34,767 nucleotides of DNA. Source: a virus. The stretch spans positions 1 through 34,767 of the IMG/VR virus record IMGVR_UViG_3300037847_003861; one strand, given 5' to 3'. The notes beneath the pieces were generated by a model. It did not search any database, was not told where the DNA came from, and was given only the letters and a program-made list of their open reading frames with translations. A program made the position numbers and the translations under genes. Below are positions 9,702 to 34,767 of this stretch, one piece after another. How positions within the stretch are numbered: position 1 is the stretch's first letter; each line of letters starts with the position of its first letter.

Positions 9702-11489
9702 ATGGCTTTAATAGCTGAGAGGAGCAAGCAGTTACTAGAACCCAAAATCGATCCGAAAACTAAACGGATGGATGTGGGTGGTTTTCAACTACCCCCTACG
9801 AGTTTATTAACTGCACTTTTATATGGTTTCGCTAAACACGAGGAGGTTATTGCTCGTGAATATTACTTCTGGAGAATATGTGACGAACTCTGGAATAACG
9901 AAGATCTCCCAGAAAAATTAATGGTTCGTCATCCTTGGGCAGAGATGATGATTCGCGCTGCTCTGGAGAATAAATATTTAGCTATAGGGGGGAGTGCTTC
10001 CTCTGGTAAGTCCCATACTATGGCTGCGTGGGGTATTGTTAACTGGTTGTGTCAACCACAAGATACTCTTGTTTTGATGACCTCTACTACTTTGCGTGAA
10101 GCTCGTAAACGTATCTGGGGTAGTGTTATGTCTCTCCTATCCGTGATTGATGATGCACCAATCAAGATTCGGGATTCAATTGGCAACGCTGCTTACATAA
10201 ATGAGAAAGACGTTTTGATTGAGCGAGCAGGTCTCTCGTTGATTTCAGCAGAAAAAAGTAAAACTAAAGAAGCTGTTGGTAAGTTCATCGGTATCAAGCA
10301 GAAACGTGTGATCCTTATTGGCGACGAGCTTTCAGAACTTTCTGAAGCTATCCTTCACGCAGGTCTTACAAACTTGAGTAAGAACCCTTCATTTCAAATG
10401 ATTGGTATGTCCAACCCCAATAGCCGCTTCGATGCTTTTGGGGTGTGGTCAACTCCTGTCGATGGTTGGGATAGTGTTGACACAAATACTGCTGATGAGT
10501 GGGACACAAAATGGAAGGGCAAGTATCTGCGATTAGATGGTGAGAGATCTCCCAACATTATGGCGGGAGAAACAATATACCCTTGGCTACCAACAGAAGA
10601 AAAACTAGCAGAGGACAAAGCTCTACTAGGGGTTGAGAGCAGGGGGTATATGCGAATGGTTCGGGCAGTCTTCTTTGATAGTGATGAAACCACAGGCATA
10701 TACACAGAGAATGAGATCACTACGAGCAAAGCAATGAACTCTGTTCAGTGGCAAAGCACCCCTGTAAATCTATGTGGCATCGACCCTGCCTTCACTAACG
10801 GGGGAGACAGGACTATACTTTATACAGCTAAATGTGGGTATGACCAGTCTGGTCAATACGTTATTGAGTTTGGCAAAGCCATCCATTTAAACGATGACGC
10901 TACAAATAAAGCAGTTCCGAGAACATATCAGATTGTCCGACAGATTCGGGAGCATTGCGAGAAGCTAAATATCCCCCCAGAAAATGTAAGCGTTGATGCC
11001 ACTGGAGCTGGTGCTCCGTTCTGCGATGTGTTGGCAGGAGAATGGTCCAATAGATTCATGCGGATATCATTTGGTGGTAAGGCAAGTGACAAAAGAGTAA
11101 GTGCAAACAGCAAGTTGGTAGGCACTGAACTCTATGTAAATAGGGTTTCTGAGCTTTGGTTTGTGGGCAAAGAGCTAATGAGAACTCGTCAAGTCTTTGG
11201 AGTGACCTCTGATTTAGCCCAAGAAATAACTGGAAGAAACTATGACCATGTAAAAGGATCGACTCTACGCATGAAGATCGAATCAAAGCCAGAGTTCAAA
11301 GCTCGCTTTGGACGCAGCCCCGACCTTGCAGATGCAGCATTTCTAGCCTTAGATTGTGCCCGTCAACGCTTAGGTTTAGTTGCGGTTGACCCACCAAAAG
11401 AAGGAGATCCTGCTTTAAACAGGCCAAGAAGGAGTATGAAGTATCTATCTGGTGCGCTACAGAATGCTGACACTACCCTAGTCGATTGA
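9702..11489 (+). CDS. terL: Terminase large subunit (TerL)
   Basis: A 595-residue packaging motor. The ATPase domain has Walker A at 97-104 (GSASSGKS), Walker B ending Asp208-Glu209 (RVILIGDEL) and a coupling motif near 237-240 (SNPN). The nuclease domain (RNase H-like) has Asp361 in LCGIDPAFTNGGD, Asp432 in VSVDATGAG and Asp544 in PDLADAAFLALD. It translocates DNA into the prohead and cuts the concatemer. It stands alone at the head of the + strand late unit, with ejection-type proteins rather than portal and capsid genes following. Its TGA (11487-11489) lies inside the -35 box of the next promoter. Confidence 0.95.
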   Translation: MALIAERSKQLLEPKIDPKTKRMDVGGFQLPPTSLLTALLYGFAKHEEVIAREYYFWRICDELWNNEDLPEKLMVRHPWAEMMIRAALENKYLAIGGSASSGKSHTMAAWGIVNWLCQPQDTLVLMTSTTLREARKRIWGSVMSLLSVIDDAPIKIRDSIGNAAYINEKDVLIERAGLSLISAEKSKTKEAVGKFIGIKQKRVILIGDELSELSEAILHAGLTNLSKNPSFQMIGMSNPNSRFDAFGVWSTPVDGWDSVDTNTADEWDTKWKGKYLRLDGERSPNIMAGETIYPWLPTEEKLAEDKALLGVESRGYMRMVRAVFFDSDETTGIYTENEITTSKAMNSVQWQSTPVNLCGIDPAFTNGGDRTILYTAKCGYDQSGQYVIEFGKAIHLNDDATNKAVPRTYQIVRQIREHCEKLNIPPENVSVDATGAGAPFCDVLAGEWSNRFMRISFGGKASDKRVSANSKLVGTELYVNRVSELWFVGKELMRTRQVFGVTSDLAQEITGRNYDHVKGSTLRMKIESKPEFKARFGRSPDLADAAFLALDCARQRLGLVAVDPPKEGDPALNRPRRSMKYLSGALQNADTTLVD

Positions 11490-13339: not shown

Positions 13340-16300
13340 ATGTCAGATCCAAGCAACCCAATAAAAAATAATTTTGTAGAAACTTCGTTTAGCGAATGGA
13401 GAGCTAATAACCCATACGAAGATAAAGTTGAAAGTCTAGGCAGGTATACAGAGCATCTACGAAATGAATATCTTGAAGCAGGGAGATATGACGAAGTAGT
13501 TGAGAGCCAGCTCCAGACTAATTTAAGTAAAGGTCTTCAGGCTAACCAACTGGTAACTCAAGAAAATGTTGATCAGATTAATCAACAACTTAAATCTTTT
13601 CGTAAGCCTGACCTATTAACATCTGTAAACACTCTGCTTGATGGAGACCCCATCAACGATGAGTTCCTTGATGATAGGCAAAAACAAATTCTAACTCGCT
13701 TTCAAAAAGAAAAAGAGCTGGGCCAACAAGGAGATGTAGCAACTGTCAGTGAGATTGTTCGCGAAGCAAACAGGGAAAAATATACTTCTCTATACAAGTC
13801 AGGAGAAATACTAGCCGCTGTCATTGAAGACGAAGAAGGTAACGAAATATTTTTAGGGGGTCAGATTCCTGAGAATATGACCGAAGCAGATGTTCTGAAG
13901 AAGACATCTCAGTATGGCGTCAGTGCATCCAACTTATTTGACCTTCGTTTCAAGAGAGAAGTTATGCCTGAGAATAATGGACTGATGAGATATGAAGTCC
14001 AGAAAAGACAAATGGCTGACTTTGAGGTTAGGGAACTATTGGCTAACACGGAGGATTTGGGAGTTAAAGCTGCACTATATGGTTTAGCTAAAGAATACGC
14101 GGACGATAAAACATGGGACTGGGGAGACAAGTTCAACTACTGGGCAAGTGATGGTTTGCAAGACCTGTTGCGGGGAGTAACTACTTTCTTTAGTAGCGGC
14201 GAAAAGAAAAAGGAGGGGCAGAAGGCAATCGTCTTGGATAAACTTCGTGAGAAGTATGAAGACGAAACAGATGAAGCAAGAGCGAAGCTCCGCACGTTCA
14301 TTCAAAATGAAACAGATTATTCCTCTGACGTTATAGATGACGTTATCAACGATGTTACCATTAAGTATGCCTTCGGAGGAGATGCTAAAGAAAATGTAAA
14401 TCCGTTTACTAAGTATACAGATAACGAGGATGAGCAAGACAAGAACGTCCACAGGACCAGATATAGCGGGACTCTTGTAGCAGCGGATCTTATTTTATCC
14501 CCTACAAAATTTAGCGAAGCTTTGCGCCAAGCTGGGGTGACAGGTAGAGCAGCAGCACTAGCAGAAAAAGAAAGAGAGTTGGCAGTCATAAGAGATTATG
14601 ACCGTATGTCTGAGATACTTTTAAAAGAAGAATCTACTTCTGAAGAGTATCAAAAAGCAATTATCGAAGGTAAACAAAAAGGCTTAACTAATTCCCAAAT
14701 CATAGAGGGTTTTAGAAAGACACACGACTTCGGGAAAATTGCCCATCGTTTCAGCGGGGTGGGTAGTAGTATAATAGAAGGTTTTCAAAGTATTGGTTAT
14801 GGTCTTGCTGCTGCTGGGTTAGGTTCTGAACAATGGGGACAAGAAGGATTAAAAAGAATATCAGAAAATAATGCACATGACCGCGCCGTAGCACAAATCT
14901 TCGGTATGGAGATGGGAGCAGGACAAGATTTCATGGAGGCTATTGCCCCTATGATGACTGACGCTGCGTTAACTGCATTGTTAACAGCGGGAACTGCAAA
15001 AGTAGGAGCATGGGGAGGTGCCGCTTACATCACAGCTAAATCATCTGGAACTGCTGCTGCCAGATCTTTAATAATGTCAACGGCTAGACAAGCACTTGCC
15101 ACCGTAGGTAAGGAGACAGCAGAGGAAGCCGCCGAAAGATTACTTAAATCGACGGCAATGAAGGGAGCTAGTAGGGATGCTACCTTTACCGCTGTTAAAG
15201 CTTATAACAGTAAACTAGCTAAGAGATTAAATATTGGTGCCGCATCATTTATTCCTGCCGCAACAAGATCTGGTTCTAATACTTACGGAGTTATCTTTCA
15301 GACAGTTGAAGATGATCTAACTCTGAAACACAAAACTGAAGAAGGTTGGGAAGAAGGTTGGAGTCTTGAGAGAGTAAAAGAAGAAGCACATGACGCAGCA
15401 ATTGGTGGTGCCATAACTCAAGGCACGATAACTGGATTACTGACTGCTGGTTTTGGTATGATCGGTAGGGGTGGTCTTGAAGAAGCATTCATGCGGGGCA
15501 TGAGTTTCCGCCAGATGAAACAGATTACTTCTAATGTAATGGGGAGAAATCTTGGCGATGCTACTTTCCAGAAGATAATGAATACCGCCTTAACTAAGGT
15601 TAAGAAAGTCCATCGATTAGAAGCACCTAAAGGATTTCTTAGGTCGGCTCTTGATGAGGGTATTGAAGAAGGTGTTGACGAGTTTATCAACACGTTAACT
15701 GTAGACGCTTTCACAAACCAAGAGACATCCTTGTTTGATCGTATGTCTTCAGCATGGCATGGGTTTGTTCTAGGTGCTGCTTTAGGTGGGAGTGGTAATC
15801 TTGTTAGCAAGACTGCAAAAAATATTGCCCCCAAAAGATTTTTAGATAGGGCTGCTGCCGCAAGAGTAGAGCGTGATGTATTCAAAGAGTATGAGCGTGA
15901 GGTAGAAGCACAGGGTCTGGGAGAAAAACTAAGGGAAGCTGGTTCACCAGCCACGGCACAGGAGGCAGAACGATTGATCCGCCAATACAAAAGAGCAGAG
16001 CGTCCTGAAAAAACTGCAACACTAGAGCCTACTCGTAGTGCGGTTGAAGAAGTAGAGGACGAGATCGATTCGATTATTGAAGAAGAAGGTGACGAGCTTA
16101 GTGATGCGGAGATGGATGAGATCAATGCAGAGTTAGCAACCTTAGTTACTCCTGAAGCTGTAAGAAAAGAGATGCAGAAAATTACTGCGGACGATTTGCA
16201 AAGCACACAAGTTAATCCTGACGCTGCCAGCAACCCAGCAATTGAAGTAGCTCAACAAGCAGAAGGAGGTTCAACTTCAGCGGCAGTTTATCTTTCGTCA

Positions 16301-19300
16301 CAACACGCAGCTAAGAACACACAACTAGAATTAGATGAGGAATACGCACTGATTCTGGATGACATTCGATACAAAGAAAAATTGTATCGGAAGATGGAGC
16401 GGGAGCTTCAAGGTAAAGAGGGTGTCTCTGCGGACAGATTGAGGAAAGCTTTAGATGATGCTGTAGCAAATGGTAAAGCCCTAAGCCCCCAAGATGCAAA
16501 GTTCATGCGAGCTGAAGCCTCGAAAAGATTTAAGGAAAAACAAAATGAACAAGCAGCGTCTGATAAAAAAGGATCAAGCGAAGAAGATATTAAGTCTATT
16601 GAGGATTTAGTTAAGGCTGGGTTCCCGCACACACTCACCATTGATCAGTTAGAAAGACTTGGTATCGCTACAGATAATTTAGATAAAGCTTCCCTAAGAA
16701 CTCTTACTAAAGAGTTGAGGCAAAAGATTGAAAAAGAGTATCCTGTCATAAAAGAGTTTGATGACGTAGCAGCTACACTTCCTTCAATCTATGGGGCTAA
16801 AGGTAAGGTGCGTATATCTTCATCTGGGATGGGTGTGTTTGATAACAACCCTGTCACCATGCTCACTTTGCTGGAGAGTAATATACAAATACCTATTCCT
16901 CAGGATGTAGTAGACGGAGGTAAAATAAACCCAGCGTTCGAAACCGAGCGTAGAGGTGGGCAGACTTTTGTTACCGACATCATGGTTCGGGAATCAGGAG
17001 GCATGGTGTCAGCCAAGACAGCTTTCAATAAAGTTGGTGCGCTAGAAGAAGATTACTCAAGGGTTGCTGATGCAGCCACTAAACTAAACGAACTAAAAGC
17101 GGATGTTCAAATCAGCGAAGACATCAAAGTAAGGAATCCCTTTAACACAAAAAGTAAGATTAAACTTACCACTCTACTAGATAGAGTTAAAGACACGACA
17201 CTTTTACAAGCAATACTAGAGGTCAACAGCCCAGACTTTGTAAAGCTAACGCAAGGGTTTAGGCAATCTGCACTAGTAACTTCAAGTGTAGAGATGCAAG
17301 CTGCTATCTACGAGTATGCTCAAAAGGTTTCCTCTGGTGTTGAGGTTGAATCTTCTCCGTTCAAAGTAGCTGAAGTTGCTAAACCCACAGCAACTTATTT
17401 CTTCAACCAACAAGTAGCTAGAAAGAAACGTGCCGCTAGAAGTTTGGTAAGTCTAGTTAGTGATTCTGAATTTAATTCTGACACAGTAGCACCAATACCA
17501 GATACCTATGTTCCAGTTGATCCAAACCCACTTCCTCCTTTGCCCACAAGGAAAGTTACTAATTACATCGAGGATCTTCAGGCAGCAGGTGGAGATGCCT
17601 TAGATAATAACAATCAATTAAGAGGCTCAATAGCCAACCTTCTAAATTCAGAATATCACAGAGGAACAAATAGAGCGTTCGTATTGCGGTCACCTCAGTT
17701 GTTCACTGAGTTTTTGCAGTATATGAGTAAGGGTAACTACGCTCGCTCAAAAGCTGCTAAGGCTTTCCAGACTAATCTTAACAATGGTTTGTTTGAAGCA
17801 GAAGGGGATGTAGTTCGAAAAGTTTTAAGGACTCTTAGTTTATCTGACGCCGAAGTAGAGTTGCCAATTGATCAAGACCCTGAGTTTTTGCAGCAACTCA
17901 AGGCAGACTTACAAGACTTAGCTGGTGCAGATTATACTGTCACCGATGGTCAAGTTCTTGCGTTCCACGTAGACTTAGCTAAGGCGGGAGCCGAAGCCAA
18001 ATTCCAAAGGGCAATACAGAACGGTAGGTCTATGAGAGTTAACGCTGGTGTTAACGATGCCATACTAGAAGCTTTAGGAATAAGTAGTAACGACCCTGAA
18101 GGTGTAATCGAAGCACTGGAAAAAGTAGTGGGTGGCAAAAGCCAAACTCAATCTACTATTGCTAAGGTTCTTCTTGCTGACAAAGAGTTTATAAGAAGTA
18201 TCAAGTTTTCTTTCGAGGCAACTACAGCAGACTATGCGGGAGCATACTACTTAGATAACGAAGGTAATCCTAACATTGTAATCAACGGTGCGAGGGCAAG
18301 TGACCGAGGGGTAGTTGATGTATTGCTACATGAGTTAGTCCACGCATTTTCAGACAGGGTATTATCGAAGTCACCTGAGGTCCGCACATCTAGTGAGAAC
18401 AATGCCATCAATAGGATCGAGTCATTGCTCAAGATCCTACGCAAAAGGGCAGCTTCAGAAAACGCACCTGACAGTGTGTTGTATGGATTAAAGAACATTG
18501 ATGATTTCTTATCTACCTTCCTTACTTCTCCAGAGTTCCAAGGCTTTGTAAAAAGCATGAGGACTTCATCAGGAGAGAGAAACTTTATCCAAAGGATTAT
18601 TGACGCCATTGCTAATTTATTCAGTAGGTCCAATAAAAGATTTCAACAAGCACTTCAGGATTCCTTAACCCTGACTCAAAGGAGAGGAATCTCTGAACCT
18701 GAAACAGCAGAAGGATTCGCGAGTCAGATTGCATCTAAGCTATCAAGGAGACAGGGCACACGGTCCAGACTCGCCACCAGTATTGGAATGGCTGAGGACA
18801 TTAATACTAATGAAGCTCTTGATAATGCTGCGGTAGAATACTTTGCATTCGCTGCCAACTATGTCCCACCAGAGATCAACATCGTTATGGATAATACCAC
18901 CGATGTTATTGCTGAGTGGGATGCAGAGTCACAATCAATTGTGTTCAACGGTCGGAGGGCGGCTGCGAAAGTTAATCAGCTAGTCGCCGCTGTTGACGGC
19001 AGACCTATTAGGAGAGAGCACATACTTGCTGCAATCTTGAATGAGGAAATTGCACACGTTGCATCCTTTGCCCAGTTAAGTCAGGATCAAATCGAAGCAC
19101 TAATGGCTGGTATCAATGATCTTGATGCACAAAGTATCATCGAACAATACTATCCAGAGGCAGAAAGGGAAGCGGCACTAGCTAGATTCAGGAGTGAAGA
19201 CCCTGAAATAAGCAGGACCGAAAGATTTATTTTAGCAGAAGAACAGTTGCGTATCCACGTTCAGAAAGTTCTCCGTGGTGCGGAGACCAATGAACAGGTT

Positions 19301-22300
19301 AACTTCCTATTGGAGAACCCATCCTTGCTCCAGACTGTTAAGCAGTATTTCAAGAATGTTCTTACCAAGCTAACATACCGTAGGAACTTGAAGGACGTTT
19401 CTCCTGAAATGAGAGACGCTGTTAACAGAGTTGTCACAGAGGTTCGTGCGATGGAGATGGCATACAGGCTTAGTCCAAATGGTATGCACTTCGATATCGA
19501 GAACTCAGAGGCAACAATGAATCAGATGCTCAAGCAGTTGGAGATGCATAACTCTATCACTCCTCCAGAAGAGGACATTGATGAAGAAGCTCCACCCGCA
19601 CCCACACTACAATCTAGGTGGGGGGCAGACGCTGGAACTGTTCCTTCCGATCATGGTGCTGTAGGTAAATTAGCGAATGGTGAATCCATTGGAAACTTTA
19701 CTGCACTACCAGCAGAGATTCTTGCTGACGCCAAAGATCCTAACAAGACTGTTAATGTTACGTTGTCCCACACCAACATAACTCTTGGCAGAAGAAGCAG
19801 AGAGTCCGAAGAAGACTTGCAGAACTTCCCCTTAGGTGTGATGCCATTCTCGTTAGAGATTGGGGGTGCAAAGTATAATGCATTCAACGTCCGTATGAAG
19901 AATGCAGGTGTTCCAAACCTAGACGAAACTATCTACAAAAACTTTTTGTCTAAAAAATCTGCCGCCAAATATCAGTTGTCTGAGAACATGAAACTCAAGG
20001 ATGTCTTAGACAGAATCAATGCTGTTGCAAAGAGAACTGGGGTTACATCAGCAATCAACATGACTGATATTAAGTTGACCAACCCTGAACTTAAAAACAA
20101 ATCGCCTAACTCTTTGATACCAAAAGATACTGTTATCTATGCACAAGGACCAAAGAATGTAATCGGCGGACCAACAGGAGAACTAGTATCTGCTAACGAA
20201 GATATTGATGTTTCAGATATGATGGAGGGGTGGGATGCGATAACATATAATCCTGCAATGGGTAACTACATGTATCGTGTAGCTGAGGATAGTGCAGGTA
20301 GAACTCGCTTCTACACACAGAGTAAGTTTGTTGGTGCTGATGAAATGGTCATGGTTAGTAACCTTGATACAGGAGGCACGAACCCATTTCAAAACTTCGC
20401 GATCTGGGTCAAGGGTGCAAGATACAAAGCTGTTGATCCACAAGTAGATCCTCCCGCCCATAAGACAATCAAGGAACTAATCGACAAGAAGCAAGCTGAA
20501 CCGACTCCGCTCAAGCCAGCTCTTCAATCTCGCGTAGGGTCTGATATTGATTTGGGTCTGACGATGAAGAGTTTCAAAGTAAACTCTTACCCCAAAGAGT
20601 TAGACTTATTTAAGACCAAAGCAGGTAAGGTTAAAGGGGCACCTCCTCAAGTTAAGTCTAGTCAGGATGTTACTAAAGTAATGAACAGACTTAAAAAGCT
20701 CACGATTGAAGGAGCTGTTGGTAGGTATTGGTATGAGGATGCAGCCAGTAAAATACTTGAGATAACTAAAGGCGATGTTGTTGAAGCAGAAAAGTTTATT
20801 GCACTGTTAGCAATTTATTCACCTCAAACTGGGGTTGAAGTTAATACTTACTTTGCTGTCAGAGCGTATGAACAACATGCGAATGGAGTTAGTCGTGAAG
20901 ACTTTGGTGTAAAGACTAGCGTTCAGGATGATAAAGCGAGGGCAGTTCTATATGACATCCAACCTTGGGACGGAAGAAAGACAGATAACTTTTACAAGAA
21001 CTTAATGTTCCACATAGTTTCTGAAGCTTCGCCTGATCAACTGGATGCTATGCAGATTGACCCAGCATTCTTAAAAGAATTACAACAACCTGTCACCGTA
21101 GACATGTGGGTGTATCGTGCATTGGGTTATGACACAATTGGTTTAACAGATGCAAAGGGGCAGGGTGCTTTTGGGTTTTCTGAAAAGCTGATAAATAGAT
21201 TAGCTTATGCGTTGAATCAAAACCTTCCAGAAGGGGCTGACCCATATCAAGCACATCAGATACAAGCTATGATTTGGACGGCTATCAAAGCGCGTTCAGA
21301 ACAAAAAGATGTTAAGAAAAAGACGGAAGCTCAGAGTGTTAAAGCAGGTGATCTTGTTTACAAGACAGACGCAAAAGGCAAGAGGACCAGATCATTCCCA
21401 ACCAAAGAAGCAGAGCGTAAGCATCAACTTCGTTGGACCAAAAATGCTTTGGCCGCAGAAGGTGTAGACTTCATAGAAGCCTCACGTTCCTTTGATTACT
21501 TTGTCAACACAATGGGCATGACTGCTACGTGGGAAGTCATACCATCTACTCTTACAGACATAGGTAAACAATTAGCTGCAATGTCCTTTGATGAGAAGAG
21601 GGCATTCACACAAAAAGCGATGGGCCTTATTGTAGACCCAGAGACTGGAGAGGATCTCTTAGCAAGAGAACTAGGAATATCTTTATCAACTGTTGCTGGT
21701 TCAGCAGGTGGTTATGCAGGAGGGGTAACACCGAATGTTATATCTACAGTTTATCCTAACAAACCATCAGGCACATACGATGATGACGCTATAAGAGCTT
21801 ACTCCAGAGCACTACAGTTTATATTCAAACAAGATGCTGTGCCTTGGTCTCGTCTAATTAAGACAACCAAAGAAGATTTACACTACAAAGTAGTGAATGA
21901 AAATGGGAGAACCATACGCAAGTTTGATTCACAAGGAGCTGCGGAAGACTACGCAGCTAAAGCTAAGAAAGATTATACGGTTGCAGGTGGGGAACAATCA
22001 TTCGGTATTAACTTGGCTTTCAATGAAGAGCTTACTGAAAGTAAACTACAAGAAATACAAGACTACTTGTCATCAGTAAACTCAGATTTAGGCTTCACCC
22101 AGATATCTGATAACGAAGTTATTGTGGTTAACTATAAGATGGACTACAATAATATGTTACCCGTCTTGACAGACGAAGACTTCAACGATAAAATAATTGA
22201 AAGATATGGACAAGAAACAAAACAAACCTACTTCACAACAGTCGGAGAATACGGATACCACGACTGGTCGGATGACAGCGAAGGAGCTACTATCTTCCAA

Positions 22301-25300
22301 ACCAGTCCCCGATTCACATCCGATGTTCAAGCGTGGGTTCGTGATCGGCGGGAGAGGTTTCAACAGATCGGGCCAGAAGCCCCAGTAACCCCAAGGTTAC
22401 AGTCTCGCTACGGTGCGGGATCGCTCATACCAAAAGAGCTAGACGCTAATTCAGTAGACTTCAGTAACTGGATAGAGATGCTTGAGCTTCCACTTATGGA
22501 AGTCGGCACATACAAGTCTCCTTCCTCAATGTTCGGTCGCCTTATGTTAGGCTACGCTGACCGAGATATCATGCGCTTCAAAGAAGAGCGTGATGCATTT
22601 GTTAGGGAAGCAAAGAAACTTGTCGAAGATTTCAAAGAGAAACATGACAGGGTCATAAAGGAAGCGGCCAAAAAAGGTATAGATATACCACCTGAGTTAA
22701 TCTCACGAGCTTCTGGATCTAACATGGGTTCTCAATTAACTGATGAGCAACTCCAAGAAGTAGAAGATCAGTTCAATAAAGAAAGAGCTAACGCTAACAG
22801 AACAGCAAAGACTCCTAAGCAAAGGGAAGTCTTACTTGATATCGCGGAGAAGAACAAAGTAAAGAACGCGACTAGCTTGCGTAAGAAGAACAGAGAAGTT
22901 CTTCTCGCTGACAGGAACCAAGCCCTGAAAGACTTACTTACTATTTCTCCTGAAGCACACAAGTTAGTTCTTGATATGCGTAAACTCACTGACGAGTTAT
23001 CTAATATAGGTAACGAGTTGTTCAGTGGATTCATTAACAATGATGATTTCAGAGCTACCTTCGATGCTAACGGTGGTATCTACATCACAAGAAGGTATCG
23101 CATGTTCGAGGACAATGACTTCATGGCGCAAGTCAGAGACTTTGAAGATCCTACTTACGCACAAGAGAGACAAGACGCGATCAACTATTTCGCGCAGCAA
23201 TACATTGACTTCCATGTCGCTGAGAAGATGACGAAGGAAGGTCTTTCTAAATCAGAGGCAAGGGCAAACGTAGAACTAGAACTGGAAGAGAAGAACTCCA
23301 GTGCCAGAACAAAGGGCAAGGATATGATGATGGAGTTCCTCAACGCATACGAAAAGAATGCGGTTGGTAGGGAGCTTGAAGTTTATCAATCTGCTGACGG
23401 TGGAAGAAGCATCATGTTCAATGAGCGTAAGTTCAAAGGTGGTCCGCTCAAGGCAATCGCTAATGAATTAAACGCCAAACAAAATGTCCCTGCCCCACTC
23501 CGTAAACTCTTAGGTGAGTATGGAGATAAGGCTGGCATAGATAACCTAGCCCATACGGTTGTTCACACAGCGAGTGTGATGGCTAACCAAGCATTCTTTA
23601 ACCGAGTTGTTGAACATGGAACTAAGGGAGACAACCCTTGGTTGGTATCTGAAGAGGAGATTGCCAAAGACTTAGAGCTACCACTGGATCAACAGAAGTA
23701 TGTCGGCTGGTCTAAGTTGAAAGCAGATGAAGGCAAGATGGATTGGAATCCGATCAAGGGTTACTACACCAAGCCAGAAATAATCAAAGACTTCAGGCAG
23801 TTGATTAACATCAACAAAGCAGAGTCAGCAGCTAAGGAGATAGACAACCCAACCGAATACCTGACGCACACAGCCTTACGTTTCTTACATCGAGCCACTG
23901 GTTTATCTTTGGCGGCTAAGACACTAGGCTCTGTTGGATTCTATGTTCGTAACATGTTGGGTAACGCAATGTTCTTCGGACCTATGCAGGGATACTACGG
24001 TGGTATCGGGAAAGCATTCGGAGAGATGGGCGGTGTTGGTAAGTCAATACTATCAGGAGACGCAGCTAATTCTAAGTCACTGATTGTTCGTGCAGCTCTG
24101 GGATCTAAGGCAGCAATGGACGCAGAGCTTACAGTATTATCTTCCATGAATGTATGGGGTGATGAGATGGAAGCGAACGCGCTAAGAGATTTGCTCATTG
24201 GCAAAACTACTATCCCGCAGATGGAGAACAAGATATCTGAGTTAGCAAAGTTTGCTTCGGATAAAACCAAAGGTGCTAAAGAAGGATACGAGAAAGCAGT
24301 TAACACAGCTACTCGATTGGCATCTGCAATGGATGCATACTACAAGATAGGACTATACGAACTTGAGTTGGAAACAATCAGGGACGCTGCAAAGGCTGAC
24401 CCAGAAGGTGGGCAGTTCAGCAGGATGCTTGAGCGAGATTCAAGAGGGGCTGTTGTTCTCGATGAAGATGGTGAGCCTAAGATAACAATCGCTATGAAGA
24501 GGGCGGCTGCTGTCAAAGTTAAGAAAGTATCACAGTCATACAGCCAAGCACCACCGATTATCAAAGGACTTACTCGATCCTCAGTTGGTTTGCTTATCGC
24601 TCCTTACGTGCGATTCGCCGCAGAGATACCAAGGGTTATGATCAACACTCGTAACCTACTCAAAGAGGAAAGGGAACAGGGGAAAACAAACCCTGTAATG
24701 AGGAAGCGATACATGAAACGCTTGAAGGGAATGATAGGAACAATGAGTTTCACATTCATTCTACCAAAGGTTCTTCAACTAGCTATCGCTGGAATAGGAG
24801 AGGACGAAGATGAAGCATTGAGAAAAGGTATGCCGTCTTATTTGAGGGGGCACACTTTCTTCTACATTCCAACAGGCAAGGACGAGCTATACTCACTCGA
24901 CTTAACTTACCTCAACCCGTTCTCAGTTATCGCTGACCCCATCGCCAGATCGTTCGAAACTTTCTGGGACAGAGGAAAGCTACGCCCAATCGACGCAACA
25001 AAGGAACTGATAGTAGGATTACTAAGACCTTATGTAAGCGAGCAGATTCTTGCAGGGGCTGTGAAAGACCTAATCGAAAACAAAAACCAATACGGGAATG
25101 CAATCCGTTATGGGGATGATGACGTAGCAAACTTCGGTAGGAGCTTCGCTTACGTTTGGGAAAAGGTATACGAGCCACGGTCATTCAACAAACTGAGACA
25201 AGCTATCACTGCTGCGCAAGGAGATAAACCTGCGACAGACTTCATATCCAACCCTCTTGGTTTGTTGTTGAGTGAACTCTTACCTGTCAAGCCACACAAG

Positions 25301-25714
25301 ATAGATTTACAAAACAGTTTCAGAACTTACTTGCGTGATCACACTAACGAATACAGAGAGCTTAACACAAAGTTCAATAGACTTCTTAGTGACAAGTCTA
25401 TGACAGATGGTCAGATCAGAGACCTCTTTGATGACATATACAAAACTAGGCTGGGATATAACAACGAGTTCCGAAGAGTCATGCGAGGATATAACAGCCT
25501 TGGTCTTTCATGGAACACCATTCAGGCTCAAGCTAAACAGAAAGGCGTGAGTAAGGAGAGGTTAACGCTGACTCACAACGGGTATATGAATCGACCAGTC
25601 TTATCTAAGTTCATGCTCGATAAGTTAAGAGCTGACAAAACTCTTGAGCAGAGGGCTATCAAGTTCTTCAACTACTCACAGAAGTTTGACAGATATCCAT
25701 CACTAGAAGATTAA
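13340..25714 (+). CDS. Giant polyvalent virion protein (4124 aa), multi-domain
   Basis: One uninterrupted 12.4-kb frame. In order: N-terminal helical region (1-460); a Gly/Ala-rich amphipathic or membrane region with hydrophobic stretches near 537-566, 687-714 and 806-822; acidic coiled coil (~870-960); a zincin domain with His1664-Glu-x-x-His1668; a second zincin-like domain with Glu1902-Glu-Ile-Ala-His1906; then three blocks separated by LQSR linkers (2090, 2395, 3020). The middle block has a helical module ending TVDMWVYRALGY (~2587). The last block has YITRRYRMFEDNDF (~3248) and hydrophobic helices near 3531-3566, 3747-3767 and 3798-3820, resembling the LPD38-type C-terminus of phage polyvalent proteins. 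Such proteins are packaged and injected with phage DNA. Here it probably combines DNA ejection across the envelope with delivery of effector domains. Individual domain functions are unproven. Confidence 0.8.
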   Translation: MSDPSNPIKNNFVETSFSEWRANNPYEDKVESLGRYTEHLRNEYLEAGRYDEVVESQLQTNLSKGLQANQLVTQENVDQINQQLKSFRKPDLLTSVNTLLDGDPINDEFLDDRQKQILTRFQKEKELGQQGDVATVSEIVREANREKYTSLYKSGEILAAVIEDEEGNEIFLGGQIPENMTEADVLKKTSQYGVSASNLFDLRFKREVMPENNGLMRYEVQKRQMADFEVRELLANTEDLGVKAALYGLAKEYADDKTWDWGDKFNYWASDGLQDLLRGVTTFFSSGEKKKEGQKAIVLDKLREKYEDETDEARAKLRTFIQNETDYSSDVIDDVINDVTIKYAFGGDAKENVNPFTKYTDNEDEQDKNVHRTRYSGTLVAADLILSPTKFSEALRQAGVTGRAAALAEKERELAVIRDYDRMSEILLKEESTSEEYQKAIIEGKQKGLTNSQIIEGFRKTHDFGKIAHRFSGVGSSIIEGFQSIGYGLAAAGLGSEQWGQEGLKRISENNAHDRAVAQIFGMEMGAGQDFMEAIAPMMTDAALTALLTAGTAKVGAWGGAAYITAKSSGTAAARSLIMSTARQALATVGKETAEEAAERLLKSTAMKGASRDATFTAVKAYNSKLAKRLNIGAASFIPAATRSGSNTYGVIFQTVEDDLTLKHKTEEGWEEGWSLERVKEEAHDAAIGGAITQGTITGLLTAGFGMIGRGGLEEAFMRGMSFRQMKQITSNVMGRNLGDATFQKIMNTALTKVKKVHRLEAPKGFLRSALDEGIEEGVDEFINTLTVDAFTNQETSLFDRMSSAWHGFVLGAALGGSGNLVSKTAKNIAPKRFLDRAAAARVERDVFKEYEREVEAQGLGEKLREAGSPATAQEAERLIRQYKRAERPEKTATLEPTRSAVEEVEDEIDSIIEEEGDELSDAEMDEINAELATLVTPEAVRKEMQKITADDLQSTQVNPDAASNPAIEVAQQAEGGSTSAAVYLSSQHAAKNTQLELDEEYALILDDIRYKEKLYRKMERELQGKEGVSADRLRKALDDAVANGKALSPQDAKFMRAEASKRFKEKQNEQAASDKKGSSEEDIKSIEDLVKAGFPHTLTIDQLERLGIATDNLDKASLRTLTKELRQKIEKEYPVIKEFDDVAATLPSIYGAKGKVRISSSGMGVFDNNPVTMLTLLESNIQIPIPQDVVDGGKINPAFETERRGGQTFVTDIMVRESGGMVSAKTAFNKVGALEEDYSRVADAATKLNELKADVQISEDIKVRNPFNTKSKIKLTTLLDRVKDTTLLQAILEVNSPDFVKLTQGFRQSALVTSSVEMQAAIYEYAQKVSSGVEVESSPFKVAEVAKPTATYFFNQQVARKKRAARSLVSLVSDSEFNSDTVAPIPDTYVPVDPNPLPPLPTRKVTNYIEDLQAAGGDALDNNNQLRGSIANLLNSEYHRGTNRAFVLRSPQLFTEFLQYMSKGNYARSKAAKAFQTNLNNGLFEAEGDVVRKVLRTLSLSDAEVELPIDQDPEFLQQLKADLQDLAGADYTVTDGQVLAFHVDLAKAGAEAKFQRAIQNGRSMRVNAGVNDAILEALGISSNDPEGVIEALEKVVGGKSQTQSTIAKVLLADKEFIRSIKFSFEATTADYAGAYYLDNEGNPNIVINGARASDRGVVDVLLHELVHAFSDRVLSKSPEVRTSSENNAINRIESLLKILRKRAASENAPDSVLYGLKNIDDFLSTFLTSPEFQGFVKSMRTSSGERNFIQRIIDAIANLFSRSNKRFQQALQDSLTLTQRRGISEPETAEGFASQIASKLSRRQGTRSRLATSIGMAEDINTNEALDNAAVEYFAFAANYVPPEINIVMDNTTDVIAEWDAESQSIVFNGRRAAAKVNQLVAAVDGRPIRREHILAAILNEEIAHVASFAQLSQDQIEALMAGINDLDAQSIIEQYYPEAEREAALARFRSEDPEISRTERFILAEEQLRIHVQKVLRGAETNEQVNFLLENPSLLQTVKQYFKNVLTKLTYRRNLKDVSPEMRDAVNRVVTEVRAMEMAYRLSPNGMHFDIENSEATMNQMLKQLEMHNSITPPEEDIDEEAPPAPTLQSRWGADAGTVPSDHGAVGKLANGESIGNFTALPAEILADAKDPNKTVNVTLSHTNITLGRRSRESEEDLQNFPLGVMPFSLEIGGAKYNAFNVRMKNAGVPNLDETIYKNFLSKKSAAKYQLSENMKLKDVLDRINAVAKRTGVTSAINMTDIKLTNPELKNKSPNSLIPKDTVIYAQGPKNVIGGPTGELVSANEDIDVSDMMEGWDAITYNPAMGNYMYRVAEDSAGRTRFYTQSKFVGADEMVMVSNLDTGGTNPFQNFAIWVKGARYKAVDPQVDPPAHKTIKELIDKKQAEPTPLKPALQSRVGSDIDLGLTMKSFKVNSYPKELDLFKTKAGKVKGAPPQVKSSQDVTKVMNRLKKLTIEGAVGRYWYEDAASKILEITKGDVVEAEKFIALLAIYSPQTGVEVNTYFAVRAYEQHANGVSREDFGVKTSVQDDKARAVLYDIQPWDGRKTDNFYKNLMFHIVSEASPDQLDAMQIDPAFLKELQQPVTVDMWVYRALGYDTIGLTDAKGQGAFGFSEKLINRLAYALNQNLPEGADPYQAHQIQAMIWTAIKARSEQKDVKKKTEAQSVKAGDLVYKTDAKGKRTRSFPTKEAERKHQLRWTKNALAAEGVDFIEASRSFDYFVNTMGMTATWEVIPSTLTDIGKQLAAMSFDEKRAFTQKAMGLIVDPETGEDLLARELGISLSTVAGSAGGYAGGVTPNVISTVYPNKPSGTYDDDAIRAYSRALQFIFKQDAVPWSRLIKTTKEDLHYKVVNENGRTIRKFDSQGAAEDYAAKAKKDYTVAGGEQSFGINLAFNEELTESKLQEIQDYLSSVNSDLGFTQISDNEVIVVNYKMDYNNMLPVLTDEDFNDKIIERYGQETKQTYFTTVGEYGYHDWSDDSEGATIFQTSPRFTSDVQAWVRDRRERFQQIGPEAPVTPRLQSRYGAGSLIPKELDANSVDFSNWIEMLELPLMEVGTYKSPSSMFGRLMLGYADRDIMRFKEERDAFVREAKKLVEDFKEKHDRVIKEAAKKGIDIPPELISRASGSNMGSQLTDEQLQEVEDQFNKERANANRTAKTPKQREVLLDIAEKNKVKNATSLRKKNREVLLADRNQALKDLLTISPEAHKLVLDMRKLTDELSNIGNELFSGFINNDDFRATFDANGGIYITRRYRMFEDNDFMAQVRDFEDPTYAQERQDAINYFAQQYIDFHVAEKMTKEGLSKSEARANVELELEEKNSSARTKGKDMMMEFLNAYEKNAVGRELEVYQSADGGRSIMFNERKFKGGPLKAIANELNAKQNVPAPLRKLLGEYGDKAGIDNLAHTVVHTASVMANQAFFNRVVEHGTKGDNPWLVSEEEIAKDLELPLDQQKYVGWSKLKADEGKMDWNPIKGYYTKPEIIKDFRQLININKAESAAKEIDNPTEYLTHTALRFLHRATGLSLAAKTLGSVGFYVRNMLGNAMFFGPMQGYYGGIGKAFGEMGGVGKSILSGDAANSKSLIVRAALGSKAAMDAELTVLSSMNVWGDEMEANALRDLLIGKTTIPQMENKISELAKFASDKTKGAKEGYEKAVNTATRLASAMDAYYKIGLYELELETIRDAAKADPEGGQFSRMLERDSRGAVVLDEDGEPKITIAMKRAAAVKVKKVSQSYSQAPPIIKGLTRSSVGLLIAPYVRFAAEIPRVMINTRNLLKEEREQGKTNPVMRKRYMKRLKGMIGTMSFTFILPKVLQLAIAGIGEDEDEALRKGMPSYLRGHTFFYIPTGKDELYSLDLTYLNPFSVIADPIARSFETFWDRGKLRPIDATKELIVGLLRPYVSEQILAGAVKDLIENKNQYGNAIRYGDDDVANFGRSFAYVWEKVYEPRSFNKLRQAITAAQGDKPATDFISNPLGLLLSELLPVKPHKIDLQNSFRTYLRDHTNEYRELNTKFNRLLSDKSMTDGQIRDLFDDIYKTRLGYNNEFRRVMRGYNSLGLSWNTIQAQAKQKGVSKERLTLTHNGYMNRPVLSKFMLDKLRADKTLEQRAIKFFNYSQKFDRYPSLED

Positions 25715-25716
25715 TT

Positions 25717-25929
25717 ATGAAAGCAAAAGATAAATTCAAAAAGCACATCATGTATGATAAAGATGGTAAAGCATACAAAGCAAACACATACGAACAACAT
25801 TTAGCCATGAAGAAAAAAGGATACGGTCACGAAGACCCAAAGAAAAAGAAAGCCAAGAAAAAGAAAGCTTCCAGTTCTAGTAAATCTTTCCTCAAGAAAG
25901 TTGATAGGATGAAAGGTGGTAGTTACTAA
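25717..25929 (+). CDS. Lysine-rich small protein
   Basis: A 70-residue, very basic protein. The N-terminal half (KHIMYDKDGKAYKANTYEQH) may be a small fold; the second half is KKKKAKKKKASSSS with a basic tail, like a histone H1-type tail. It starts two bases after the stop of the giant gene and closes the + strand operon. Nucleic-acid binding is likely from charge alone; a packaged DNA-binding or condensing protein is one possibility. Its last four bases overlap the end of the converging DUF1599 gene. Confidence 0.65.
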   Translation: MKAKDKFKKHIMYDKDGKAYKANTYEQHLAMKKKGYGHEDPKKKKAKKKKASSSSKSFLKKVDRMKGGSY

Positions 25930-26342
25930 AGGATCTTTTCCTTTATTGTCTCAACCATAGTTTCTTTTAACGCCTCGTAATTATCATAAGAGCACCTCTC
26001 GGATTCGGGGGGCTGCTCTTTTTTTGCTTCTCGTTCTTGCTTCAACATAGCCTTCGCCAGTATTGCATAGTTGATGATGTCTTCGCATGCATCATCGACT
26101 GTCTCCCCAGACACGGACAGTTGTCCATCGTTCGTGAATGTTTTAATGCGTTGTATCTTATCTAGCACACGCATCAGGATACCCGTTACAGGATGCACAT
26201 CCAAGATAGTTGAGCAGCGGAAGTTAGCGAACACATCATCAGCTTCTTTGCCACCAGTGTAGTCGTTGTTCTTCACCTCCATTATATGGCGACACCTACT
26301 TGTTGTATCGTCGTGTAATTGTAGAAGTTGTTCGAGTGTCAT
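25926..26342 (-). CDS. DUF1599 / nucleotide modification associated domain 1 protein (MazG-like)
   Basis: A 138-residue all-helical protein. Residues 21-42 (MEVKNNDYTG, DDVFANF), then GILMRVLDKIQRI (55-67) and TVDDACEDIINYAIL (81-95) match the DUF1599 pattern (KNxDY, NF, DKIxR, D..xDxxNY). The family is related to all-alpha NTP pyrophosphohydrolases and is often found in phages, some with modified DNA. The probable role is control of nucleotide pools or of modified nucleotides. It lies at the end of the right-arm - strand transcript. An intrinsic terminator for the opposite strand is embedded in its 3' part (25988-26025). Confidence 0.7.
   Translation of the reverse strand: MTLEQLLQLHDDTTSRCRHIMEVKNNDYTGGKEADDVFANFRCSTILDVHPVTGILMRVLDKIQRIKTFTNDGQLSVSGETVDDACEDIINYAILAKAMLKQEREAKKEQPPESERCSYDNYEALKETMVETIKEKIL
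25988..26025 (+). terminator. Intrinsic terminator for the + strand operon, inside the opposing gene
   Basis: AAGAGCA (25988-25994) pairs with TGCTCTT (26014-26020), and the + strand runs into seven Ts (26019-26025). The loop region holds extra short GC pairing. It lies ~60 bases past the lysine-rich protein stop, so it would end the giant-gene transcript. The same bases encode part of the DUF1599 protein on the - strand. Confidence 0.75.
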
Positions 26343-32056: not shown

Positions 32057-33481
32057 TTACAGGATGTCTACGTCGAGCTTATCCCCGAAGCTGTAGGCAT
32101 TTGGCTCGTGCCATCTCTCGTCTCCGTAGTTGAGCCAAACTACTGGGGCCGAAGGTTCAGATCTCTCGATCTTATTCCAGTGATCGTATCCATCAGTGAG
32201 GACGATGATCGCCTCGACATGCGGGATGTTTTCTTCCACCCATCTGAGGGCCAAGGCGATGTCAGTCCCGCCGCCGCCTTTGAGGTGCTTAGGCAATGCG
32301 TCACCATTGAAAACCTCGTGATGCTCAGTGACCTCGTCATCGAATCCTACGAGGTGGATGATCTCAGGGCTGATAGAATCGAAGGCGTCCTCAGTGCGGC
32401 TAATCATGTCGGCAGCCTCGTGATAGTTGGAGCCTGACAGATCAACAAGGAAGGCAATCTCTCCAGCGTTATTGGAGCCGCGCCCATGACAAACTACGCC
32501 GCCGCCTTCGAACATCTGAGAGTTGAATGGCTTAGTCCAGCCGCCTTCAAAATTCTGGCGGAGTAAATCGGTAAGTGCCTCAGAGAAATCGATGACGCCG
32601 TCGCGATTGCTGCGAGCATTGGATACGTCGATGGTGCCTTTACCACCTGATCCAATTCCCTGTGCCTCGTTAGCCTTGGCCTCGATCTCGATCTGCTCAT
32701 TCTCGATCTCGATCTGCTGATCAACTTCCTGCTCAGTCTCACCGTCTGCAAGCTCAGGCTCAGTGAGATCATCTGATCCTGTGCCTACGAAATCCCCGCC
32801 CAAAATCTCCTCGTCAGTAAGTGGTGCATCAGGATCTGGGTTACCAGAATCTCCCTGCTCGCCGTCTTCCTGCTCGCCGTCTTCCTCAGAAGATCCACCT
32901 TGTCCGCCGCCAGTCTGCTCGCCGTCTTCCTGATCGTCTCCTGCCTGTGGCTCAGGCTGGTCCTGATCCTGCTCAGGCTGCTGGCCCTTGGCAAGATTCT
33001 GATACACTTCCTCAGCAGACAGGCTCTCATTCTTGGAATTGTAGGCGATTGAATCATCGTGAAGGATTCCACTGATGAATGGGAAAGGAACGAATCCCTC
33101 TTCGGCCAGCACCTGCTTGTTGATCCTGTCGATGATCGCGTTGATCACGTAGTCGGCTGCTACGTTTGCAAGCTGGTGATTCTGGAGCTTGGCAAGGCGC
33201 AGTGCATGGTTCAGGAGAGCATGCAAAGCCTCGTGAACGAGAAGGAATGCAAGGTAACCGACTGGGTCGCTGGTCCTCTCGATCTTCTTGAGACCGTCAG
33301 GATTCAGGAACAATCTGCGGCCATCAGTGGCACCGTATGAACCGATTCCCTCAGTGGCCCAATACCAACTGAGGAGGACCAATTTCTGGAATGCTAAAGG
33401 GAAGAAGCGGCGGACCCTGCGGAGGGATTTGGCGAGGGTATCCTCGCCGTTTACGTTGTAAGCAATTGATGCGGTATTCAT
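32057..33481 (-). CDS. Metallopeptidase-like / VWA protein (DUF2201 type), 474 aa
   Basis: A 474-residue protein from ATG 33481 (MNTASIAYNV). The N-terminal domain has HEALH (His83, Glu84, His87) in LVHEALHALLNHAL, with Asp110 in AADYVIN as a possible third ligand. This is the putative metallopeptidase domain paired with DUF2201. A long acidic Gln/Glu/Asp/Gly-rich linker (~165-270, EDGEQ repeats) leads to a C-terminal VWA domain with a MIDAS: DLSGS (Asp347, Ser349, Ser351), Thr406 in GGGGTDI and Asp430 in VLTDGY. Such proteins usually work with a MoxR-type AAA+ ATPase; none is in the window. The frame upstream of 33481 overlaps the 314-aa gene and is not used. Confidence 0.82.
   Translation of the reverse strand: MNTASIAYNVNGEDTLAKSLRRVRRFFPLAFQKLVLLSWYWATEGIGSYGATDGRRLFLNPDGLKKIERTSDPVGYLAFLLVHEALHALLNHALRLAKLQNHQLANVAADYVINAIIDRINKQVLAEEGFVPFPFISGILHDDSIAYNSKNESLSAEEVYQNLAKGQQPEQDQDQPEPQAGDDQEDGEQTGGGQGGSSEEDGEQEDGEQGDSGNPDPDAPLTDEEILGGDFVGTGSDDLTEPELADGETEQEVDQQIEIENEQIEIEAKANEAQGIGSGGKGTIDVSNARSNRDGVIDFSEALTDLLRQNFEGGWTKPFNSQMFEGGGVVCHGRGSNNAGEIAFLVDLSGSNYHEAADMISRTEDAFDSISPEIIHLVGFDDEVTEHHEVFNGDALPKHLKGGGGTDIALALRWVEENIPHVEAIIVLTDGYDHWNKIERSEPSAPVVWLNYGDERWHEPNAYSFGDKLDVDIL
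32855..32929. repeat. Three 15-bp repeats in the VWA gene linker
   Basis: CTGCTCGCCGTCTTC occurs at 32855-32869, 32870-32884 (tandem) and 32915-32929. On the - strand each encodes EDGEQ in the acidic linker between the metallopeptidase and VWA domains. Identical bases, not just identical residues, point to recent duplication or slippage. Confidence 0.9.
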
Positions 33482-33494
33482 TGTATTGATTTCT

Positions 33495-33522
33495 AATCTA
33501 CTGGTTAATTCTTCAATGTCAA
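33495..33522 (-). promoter_or_regulatory. Candidate promoter for the VWA gene
   Basis: On the - strand, TTGACA (33522-33517, 6/6) and TAGATT (33500-33495, 4/6) are 16 bases apart, the same arrangement as at 29427-29400. The leader to the ATG at 33481 would be only ~6-7 bases. It lies in the 43-base gap after the 314-aa gene. Confidence 0.5.
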
Positions 33523-33524
33523 CA

Positions 33525-34469
33525 TTAGAGTCCAATTGATTTGGCCTGTTTGATGGCACTCTCAGTGGTGGTCTGGATCTCTTTGACGATCTTCTTCCTC
33601 TCCTTGTGAGCCACAGCCTGAGACTCGTTCCAGATGTCAGATTTCTGGACGCCGCGCAGGAGGGTATCGAATACCTCTGCAATCTTCTTGATGGATGAAT
33701 CACCAAGCCAATTGTCACGCTGCAAGTCACGAGCTTCATCGAGGAGTGTCTCGAATCCCTCAGGACGAAGGCGGTTACCCTTCTTGAGAGAGGCTTCCAC
33801 CTTGCCCACCTGAGCCACTACATTCTCAAAGAATGCATCGACGCTGGCGCGGTGTGACTCGACAAGCTGCTCCCTTTCAATCTCCTGATCAGCTCTGATC
33901 TGAGCAGCCAATTCCTCAGGGAGTGCACCAAGTGCAGTGTCATCGAAGCTGATGGCACCGTTGCGGATAGTGACGCCGAAGCTGGCGCGGGAGATGTATT
34001 CATCCCTGTCAGGATAAACAAACTGATCCGCTGCCTTGCCAAGCAAAAGCTTACCCTCAGAAACAAGGGCATCCCAGTCCCTCTCGATAAGTGATTTCAC
34101 AGTATCCAACTTACGCTGGGTATCGTCTGCGATTTCGCGGATAACGTCAGTGTCATCGGCGTCTGCATAATACCAGCCGATATTGTCCGCGCCCATTGGC
34201 TTGAGCTTGGACTTGATGCGCTTTCCGTTGTCATCATGGGCGGCTGCGATGAGAGCCTTCTTGCCAGCGGTGACAATATTGCGAGCCTGAGAGATCGCGT
34301 TGTCCTCAGATGGGAGGAAGTGAAGGCCAGCGTCGAGAGCCTTAGGATCTGCGCCGTAGGCACGAGCCAAGAGATTAATGCTGGCCTCGTGCTTGGCCTT
34401 CGTTGGAAGGTAAGTTGCGCGGATTCTGACCTTAGCGATTGAGTTGATTTCTGATGTATTGATGTTCAT
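33525..34469 (-). CDS. Possible DUF3150-like protein, 314 aa
   Basis: A 314-residue, mainly helical protein (ATYLPTKAKHEASINLLARAYG, KKALIAAAHDDNGKR, TQRKLDTVKSLIERDW, FFENVVAQVGKVEASLKK). An N-terminal mixed region and a central W-containing helix followed by long helices resemble, loosely, DUF3150 proteins, which I recall being encoded with MoxR ATPase and VWA proteins in phages. Adjacency to the VWA gene supports that pairing but the family call is tentative. No catalytic motif is seen. The start ATG follows an AT-rich leader (AACCAATAAAATG). Confidence 0.45.
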   Translation of the reverse strand: MNINTSEINSIAKVRIRATYLPTKAKHEASINLLARAYGADPKALDAGLHFLPSEDNAISQARNIVTAGKKALIAAAHDDNGKRIKSKLKPMGADNIGWYYADADDTDVIREIADDTQRKLDTVKSLIERDWDALVSEGKLLLGKAADQFVYPDRDEYISRASFGVTIRNGAISFDDTALGALPEELAAQIRADQEIEREQLVESHRASVDAFFENVVAQVGKVEASLKKGNRLRPEGFETLLDEARDLQRDNWLGDSSIKKIAEVFDTLLRGVQKSDIWNESQAVAHKERKKIVKEIQTTTESAIKQAKSIGL

Positions 34470-34484
34470 TTTATTGGTTCTTTC

Positions 34485-34517
34485 TAAGTTATAAGTTAAT
34501 TGATTGTTAGTAAGTTA
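34485..34517. repeat. Three TAAGTTA heptamers in the intergenic gap
   Basis: TAAGTTA occurs at 34485-34491, 34492-34498 (tandem) and 34511-34517, in the gap between the partial right-edge gene and the 314-aa gene. The last copy includes the upstream stop codon. They may be protein-binding sites or simply AT-rich chance repeats. No convincing -35/-10 pair accompanies them. Confidence 0.6.
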
Positions 34518-34767
34518 TGCTGCAAGAGCTTCGAATTTCGGGGAGTATTTGAGGAGGATTCCAGCACTGGATGCAAGAGGCACAGCCCACTGGCGAATCT
34601 CATTGTCAGATGCTGCGAGGGCATCGATGAACCAGTCCAGTTTGCCAGCCTTAACAGCCGCCCCAGTGTCAGGGTAATCGACTACGATTGTGCGGATAGC
34701 TGCAAAGATCACAGCGTATTGAGCGCGGTGATCTGATGGCAAATCACCACCATTCTTGAGTGCTTCC
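34515..34767 (-). CDS. Partial hypothetical protein (C-terminal end)
   Basis: A frame open to the right edge, stop at 34515. The visible ~83 residues (starting EALKNGGDLPSDHRAQYAV) are Ala-rich helices with KLDWFIDALAAS and end KYSPKFEALAA. No family recognised. The TTG at 34742 is not needed as a start because the frame continues upstream past the window edge. A MoxR-like ATPase would be expected nearby, but no ATPase motif is in this piece. Confidence 0.6.
   Translation of the reverse strand, partial: EALKNGGDLPSDHRAQYAVIFAAIRTIVVDYPDTGAAVKAGKLDWFIDALAASDNEIRQWAVPLASSAGILLKYSPKFEALAA

Follow-up and report, generated by a model that had tools for sequence, protein, structure and literature searches.

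A phage contig clipped within a probable MoxR ATPase, DUF3150-like protein and zinc-peptidase-VWA gene set

A three-gene set at the end of a viral contig

The virus record IMGVR_UViG_3300037847_003861, which we analyzed over its entire length (34,767 bases, hereafter the window), ends on its right side in three co-directional genes of the minus strand that are separated by gaps of 45 and 43 nucleotides (nt). Judged by their sequences, these genes appear to be most of a phage set made of a MoxR-type AAA+ ATPase, a helper protein and a zinc-peptidase-VWA protein, clipped at the end of the contig. The explanation that we find best, and that we hold with somewhat better than even confidence, is that they encode a three-component MoxR machine of the phage itself, which would remodel and perhaps proteolyse its client. 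The features of the locus are as follows (aa, amino acids; MIDAS, metal ion-dependent adhesion site; L002, the nearest relative).

34515-34766, minus strand: C-terminal 83 codons of a putative MoxR-type AAA+ ATPase gene (N4 gp24 family), cut by the contig end; 83% identity to the L002 ATPase
33525-34469, minus strand: 314-aa mostly helical protein, candidate third component, distantly DUF3150-like; 74% identity to L002:2487-3425
32057-33481, minus strand: 474-aa protein with zincin metallopeptidase, acidic linker and VWA (DUF2201_N/DUF2201; N4 gp25 family, phrog_1314)
33233-33235, minus strand: codon of the first His (H83) of the zinc motif HEALHALLNH; column invariant in 44/44 proteins
32441-32443, minus strand: codon of the first Asp (D347) of the MIDAS (DLSGS); column invariant in 44/44 proteins

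The relative, L002, is a 44,558-base viral contig that has the complete order, with a 371-aa ATPase, a 312-aa protein and a 485-aa VWA protein. Identity to the window is 83% for the C-terminus of the ATPase (L002:1328-2443, over 83 aa), 74% for the middle protein and 69% for the VWA protein, and since L002 preserves the gene order at these identities, we conclude that the three-gene arrangement is not due to chance. The longest open reading frame (ORF) of the window VWA gene begins at 33739. We favor 33481 as the likeliest start, giving 474 aa, because the start of the L002 gene aligns with that Met and because the 33739 form overlaps the 314-aa gene by 215 nt.

The ATPase gene is severed by the contig end

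The original prediction for this locus, made from the letters of the window, had a VWA-metallopeptidase with no MoxR ATPase in view, the ATPase being either beyond the right edge or supplied by the host. The absence turned out to be an edge effect, as the ORF at 34515-34766 is a C-terminal ATPase fragment severed by the contig end. The window record itself stops here, and the search for a MoxR gene near the locus was answered by L002, in which a complete ATPase gene lies directly upstream of the 312-aa gene. Given that the missing MoxR gene is an artefact of the contig end, a host ATPase need not be assumed; a host-supplied ATPase was rejected, the phage gene being present, and of the two places proposed only the one beyond the edge stood. 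The partnership of the VWA-metallopeptidase with a MoxR-type AAA+ ATPase was borne out by the fragment and the L002 operon.

The L002 ATPase matches AAA_5 (7.4e-5, above the Pfam cut-off) and phrog_1297, named 'ATPase' (2.7e-18), and carries the Walker A motif GQVGVGKT. The defining feature of the MoxR clade is a helix-2 insert; our putative assignment of the ATPase to MoxR rests on AAA_5, the gp24 family and the VWA partner.

The VWA-metallopeptidase is predicted to be intact

Pfam analysis of the window VWA protein gave DUF2201_N (7.7e-13) and DUF2201 (2.8e-11), both above cut-off, and the protein matches phrog_1314 (2.3e-48). It was aligned with the VWA proteins of L002 and of eight annotated phages picked from VWA matches (Ab09, N4, nACB1, K479, EE36phi1, Kc283, AR9 and phiR1-37), and within a set of 44 proteins that form 29 clusters below 90% identity. 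The zinc-site residues H83, E84, H87 and H92 (HExxHxxxxH) and the MIDAS residues D347, S349, S351, T406 and D430 were identical in 10/10 and 44/44 proteins, and so was N106-x-A-x-D110. The proteins of the eight annotated phages are 17-27% identical to that of the window and still keep the zinc and MIDAS residues. The HExxH and the MIDAS had been predicted to be intact; they proved invariant throughout the 44 aligned proteins, and the VWA protein is, as far as its sequence tells, an intact enzyme.

The same residues bear on a simpler explanation, by which the pair is a plain MoxR-VWA chaperone whose metallopeptidase fold would serve zinc binding or self-processing without proteolysis of a client; as to the client, this explanation overlaps the other readings. 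It draws on the description of RavA-ViaA and other MoxR systems as chaperone-like (PMC7159879). It is set against a HExxHxxxxH motif whose catalytic Glu is invariant in 44/44 proteins of very divergent phages, and because a purely structural zinc site would presumably not need the Glu, we regard a plain chaperone as rather unlikely.

PHROGs and several phage records name the phrog_1314 family 'HNH endonuclease', including NC_008720 gp25. Pfam scans of five family members (window, L002, L047, L068 and L055) revealed no HNH domain, and the name looks like a propagated error.

Occurrence of the ATPase-VWA pair

A profile scan of viral contigs yielded 35 VWA loci, L002's contig among them and near-duplicates such as L043/L044 and L055/L056 included. 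An AAA+ gene was present in 31 of the 35, and the other four (L046, L054, L062 and L070) are cut at the contig end. Thirty of the 35 have the AAA+ gene no more than 5 kb upstream; the L060 gene is broken into two ORFs, and that of L065 stops ~2.7 kb short of the VWA gene. The 31st, L061, has its AAA+ gene elsewhere in its 12.4-kb locus. In all eight annotated phages examined, the ATPase gene precedes the VWA gene, either immediately or with one small gene in between.

This kind of system is already known, as both the N4 gp24/gp25 family and pairs in jumbo phages have been published. N4 gp24 and gp25 are core genes in N4-like phages (PMC2784036), being among 14 such genes in one study, where they are labelled 'Unknown' and 'vWFA domain' (PMC4193335), and group 2.2 jumbo phages carry a pair of MoxR and metallopeptidase-vWA for which a role in virion assembly and processing was proposed (PMC7824862). 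In the literature on phage MoxR, VWA and DUF2201 and on N4-like gp24/gp25, of which few subscription papers were covered and the papers were available in part, the matches listed included no functional test.

Two side observations concern the pair. In L061 (5818-7490 of the locus, on a 158-kb phage contig) the peptidase and the VWA are separate adjacent ORFs of 202 and 353 aa, and the AAA ORF of this locus is up to 628 aa long. N4 gp24-like ATPases were also found on ~73-76 kb contigs in bacterial assemblies (L014, L016, L018, L022 and L024), one of which is labelled Clostridia; their size matches that of whole N4-like genomes, which suggests that they are phage contigs in bacterial assemblies or metagenome-assembled genomes.

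The third gene is DUF3150-like at the level of its family

The 314-aa neighbor had been proposed as a DUF3150-like third partner. Formal membership in the Pfam family was not borne out. Pfam, PHROGs and NCBIfam all lack a match better than E 0.1 for this protein, and Pfam DUF3150 (PF11348; cut-off 24.9 bits) does not match it at E ≤ 1. The Pfam scan of the L002 312-aa protein is likewise without a DUF3150 match, and the DUF3150 model gave no match even at E ≤ 10 in ten records, namely the window, L002's contig and eight phages.

Likeness to DUF3150 did emerge when profiles were compared. Relatives of the third gene are present in 12/12 records of the window's lineage, and the eight aligned proteins outside L002 (L042, L043, L045 and L047-L051, with L042/L045 and L043/L050 as close pairs) are 20-24% identical to that of the window. 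DUF3150 is the best Pfam family, below threshold, for seven of these eight (E 1e-4 to 0.014), the best match being that of L043 with 22.2 bits and E 1e-4; the L048 protein has no Pfam DUF3150 match. Comparison by hhalign of a profile of ten lineage proteins with nine DUF3150 proteins gave a probability of 87% (P 3.7e-6, 92 columns, score 48.9), and the top score among 150 column shuffles, which lose helix periodicity, was 22.2. When the window and L002 were taken out of the profile, the match weakened to a probability of 34% (P 4e-4).

The profile of only two sequences, window and L002, matched DUF3150 with a probability of 26% when three and 6.7% when nine DUF3150 sequences were used, which is suggestive only; after trimming, 0/200 shuffles attained its score, locally or globally. 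Real proteins served as control at the single-sequence stage, with 187 protein pieces as decoys, one of them L002's own third protein. Here, a MotB-like protein of L040 scored 38.7 and outscored the proteins of the window (29.1) and of L002 (31.7), the next decoy reaching 24.6. Because this decoy beat the single sequences, we relied on the deeper family of ten proteins. Pfam DUF3150 also gives weak matches to the L038 and L040 proteins, found in a scan of 398 genomes, both of which we take to be flagellar MotB. These matches are probably coiled-coil noise, and since MotB-like proteins also match, a weak DUF3150 match should be judged together with its gene context.

With the 314-aa protein or the alignment of two sequences as query, we found no phage record, no bacterial genome contig and no viral contig beyond L002's, and among PDB sequences one match of chance level (E 0.27). 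DUF3150 profiles revealed no relative in the viral contigs. When DUF3150 proteins were used as single queries against the phage collection, one matched a single record, labelled Salmonella, and another matched none. AlphaFold2 (AF2) models had a mean predicted local distance difference test score (pLDDT) of 57.0 for the 314-aa protein and of 41.6, too poor for assigning a fold or active sites. In a BFVD search with the model of pLDDT 57, the fifth-ranked match was a phage protein that bears the name DUF3150 (E 0.12, template modelling (TM) scores ~0.24). None of the BFVD matches reached E ≤ 0.001 (the best had 2.5e-3, with TM-scores of ~0.3), and a PDB structure search with these poor models gave nothing significant. 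No mention of DUF3150 was found in the literature searched, which covered few subscription papers.

Third genes in other lineages and in cells

In loci of the L068 type (four loci with near-identical third proteins), the order is ATPase, 293-aa protein and VWA, whereas in L055 a third gene of 313 aa comes before the ATPase, an ORF of equal length being present in L056. The L055 third protein matched the L068 group with P 3.4e-10, and the two together matched the window family with a probability of 92.5% (P 4.9e-7, 177 columns), both comparisons being uncontrolled by shuffles or decoys. Taken alone, the L068 group gave 28% with the lineage profile and 0.7% with DUF3150, and L055 gave 48% and 34%, respectively. 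The match of L055 plus L068 to cellular DUF3150 was weak (probability 8.6%), and Pfam DUF3150 had no match in the three L068-type third proteins scanned, nor in L055.

Two sets of candidates were rejected. The gene of ~250 aa that precedes the ATPase in L052-type loci is not a third partner of this kind (P 0.31 and 0.09 for 11 proteins, L055 being the twelfth upstream gene compared), and the genes that five N4-like phages (Ab09, nACB1, K479, EE36phi1 and Kc283) carry between ATPase and VWA are unrelated to the 314-aa protein and to each other. Cellular DUF3150 was above cut-off in 9/398 genomes of one phylum and in none of 98 genomes of another class. L029 has an AAA_5/CbbQ-like ATPase, DUF3150 and then a CobT-family HExxH protein with an acidic linker. 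In L031-L034 and L036, DUF3150 has a gene with HExxH and/or one with Walker A as its neighbor; in L035, neither was seen.

These data allow us to judge whether the 314-aa gene is an unrelated passenger that happens to lie between ATPase and VWA. The slot genes of the five N4-like phages, which match neither each other nor the 314-aa protein, would fit a passenger, as would the lack of any database match below E 0.1. A passenger would not readily explain why the third gene is kept in 12/12 lineage records despite 20-24% identity in the eight outside L002, why two other lineages have related genes next to the pair, arranged differently in one of them, or why the cellular AAA-DUF3150-CobT-like operon of L029 has the same order. 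We consider it very improbable. On sequence grounds, the data support the 314-aa protein as a probable DUF3150-like third partner, though not formally a DUF3150 member; the proposal held for likeness of profiles and failed for membership. Of the two outcomes that were to refute the original prediction, the lack of an ATPase gene near the locus and the lack of any DUF3150 match, we consider that both were decided in favor of the prediction.

Lineage, strand and expression

A tblastn search of 50,697 phage records, schitoviruses included, gave no match to the window terminase (9702-11489) at E ≤ 1e-5, and the window thus lacks the schitovirus-type terminase by which membership in the Schitoviridae is judged. 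This terminase is common to 12 of 18 tested records, i.e. the window, L002's contig (91%) and ten others (64-66%), on contigs of up to 66 kb. The records (G001, G682-G691 and the window), whose terminase is without counterpart in the phage record collection, represent one lineage with two near-duplicates and not 12 independent events.

The third gene lies on the strand opposite to that of the terminase in 12/12 records and on the strand of the DNA polymerase in 9/9 that hold one. In AR9, an 'early promoter' is annotated immediately before the ATPase gene, and N4 gp24 and gp25 are middle transcripts (PMC4193335). Together, the strand, the AR9 promoter and the middle class of N4 are an argument, not a proof, against a purely late role in virion assembly.

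A virion assembly or maturation machine is nevertheless an explanation to be weighed. By this account, the MoxR and VWA proteins would help particle assembly and the zincin would process structural proteins, a 4124-aa protein of the window being a possible client. Such a role was proposed for group 2.2 jumbo phages by analogy with the MoxR-VWA pair of Acidianus two-tailed virus, reported to be required for tail assembly (PMC7824862). In the roseophage RPP1, four virion proteins identified by mass spectrometry are encoded near the gp24/gp25 homologues, and the authors described a second structural module, expressed mid-infection (PMC4193335); because of these proteins, middle expression is compatible with a virion role. 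Core gene 50 of N4-like phages is a giant RNA polymerase of the virion (PMC4193335), which is 3632 and 3786 aa long in two roseophages (PMC2784036), and the window lineage has its 4124-aa protein. The position of the third gene on the DNA polymerase strand, opposite to the terminase, the AR9 early promoter and the middle genes of N4 count against such a machine, while leaving room for early synthesis of an assembly factor, and we hold it to be unlikely.

Two other genes of the window may be described here. The 4124-aa protein (13340-25714, on the strand opposite to the VWA operon) was scanned against Pfam, PHROGs and PDB sequences, and only DUF7178 was above the Pfam cut-off. An internal stretch of it reads HELVH and gave a marginal SprT-like match, and the C-terminus of the protein is, by eye, kept in L002. 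The gene at 25926-26342 encodes a DUF1599 protein ('nucleotide modification associated domain 1'), which L002 likewise has, as judged by eye, and which may point to modified nucleotides.

A proposed mechanism

What we observe directly is the order of the genes, their homologies and the conservation of catalytic and metal-binding residues. Beyond this, we suggest that the three-component MoxR machine works as follows. One gene cluster on the replication-side strand would provide a MoxR-type AAA+ ring, a VWA cofactor bearing the zinc peptidase and a DUF3150-like helical adaptor, and would probably be expressed early or mid-infection. The three proteins may form one complex in which the MIDAS site of the VWA would hold an acidic or extended segment of the client, ATP hydrolysis by the ring would remodel the client, and the zincin would cut either the client or itself, with the DUF3150-like protein as adaptor or scaffold. 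Because of the gene location and of expression in relatives, a non-virion client, whether of the host or of phage replication or transcription, is somewhat more likely than a virion protein.

Several points weigh against this machine. One is the location of the RPP1 virion genes described above. In N4, no gene is annotated between gp24 and gp25, and the slot is not conserved in the five N4-like phages; an adaptor is therefore not needed everywhere. Because RavA-ViaA and other known MoxR-VWA pairs are described as chaperones, the zincin could be structural or self-acting, and the AF2 models, at the pLDDT values given above, offer no view of the complex or of active-site geometry.

A bolder version, which we think quite unlikely, is a self-contained phage protease. 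In this version, many tailed phages would carry a MoxR ring that passes a client picked by the DUF3150-like adaptor and the MIDAS to the zincin, whereby a host complex would be cleaved or dismantled early in infection. If true, it would account for the N4 gp24/gp25 core genes; the literature matches listed include no description of a self-contained ATP-driven phage protease of this kind. Irrespective of the version, the invariant zinc and MIDAS residues and the recurrent DUF3150-like partner offer a concrete complex and point mutants to test.

Comparison with known systems

MoxR-vWA ternary conflict systems consist of MoxR, VWA and a third component (PMC7159879), as does the set of the window lineage, and two ATPases from the lineage or the L068 type have a weak match, below cut-off, to the bpMoxR model. 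The original prediction had mentioned conflict systems, a suggestion that gained no direct support here. No effector domain follows the VWA; in the scanned form of 476 residues, the DUF2201 match extends to residue 458 with nothing behind it. PADLOC matched the L047 ATPase only to a generic AAA model (RtcR AAA, 1.5e-6), others being weak. No VMAP, iSTAND, FtsH or beta-propeller was recognised in Pfam scans of the third proteins, although Pfam may not model all of these.

Cellular operons of an AAA gene (CobS/CbbQ-like), DUF3150 and a CobT-like gene (L029, L030 and others) resemble the window lineage in layout, the order in L029 being the same. In contrast to the window, their last protein belongs to the CobT family (PF06213) and not to DUF2201, its C-terminus lying outside the locus in L029 and L030, and cellular DUF3150 shares only distant similarity with the phage third proteins. 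Group 2.2 jumbo phages have, like the window, a MoxR gene adjoining a vWA cofactor with an N-terminal metallopeptidase (PMC7824862). The available part of that paper describes no third component, and these phages are jumbo whereas the contigs of the window lineage are up to 66 kb.

N4 gp24/gp25 (phrog_1297/phrog_1314) show, like the window, an AAA+ ATPase followed by a zincin-VWA protein, from the same families and with the same invariant residues. The two lineages differ in their terminase, that of the window being without match among phage records, and in what stands between the two genes: no annotated gene in N4, unrelated small genes in five other N4-like phages, and a DUF3150-like protein in the window lineage.

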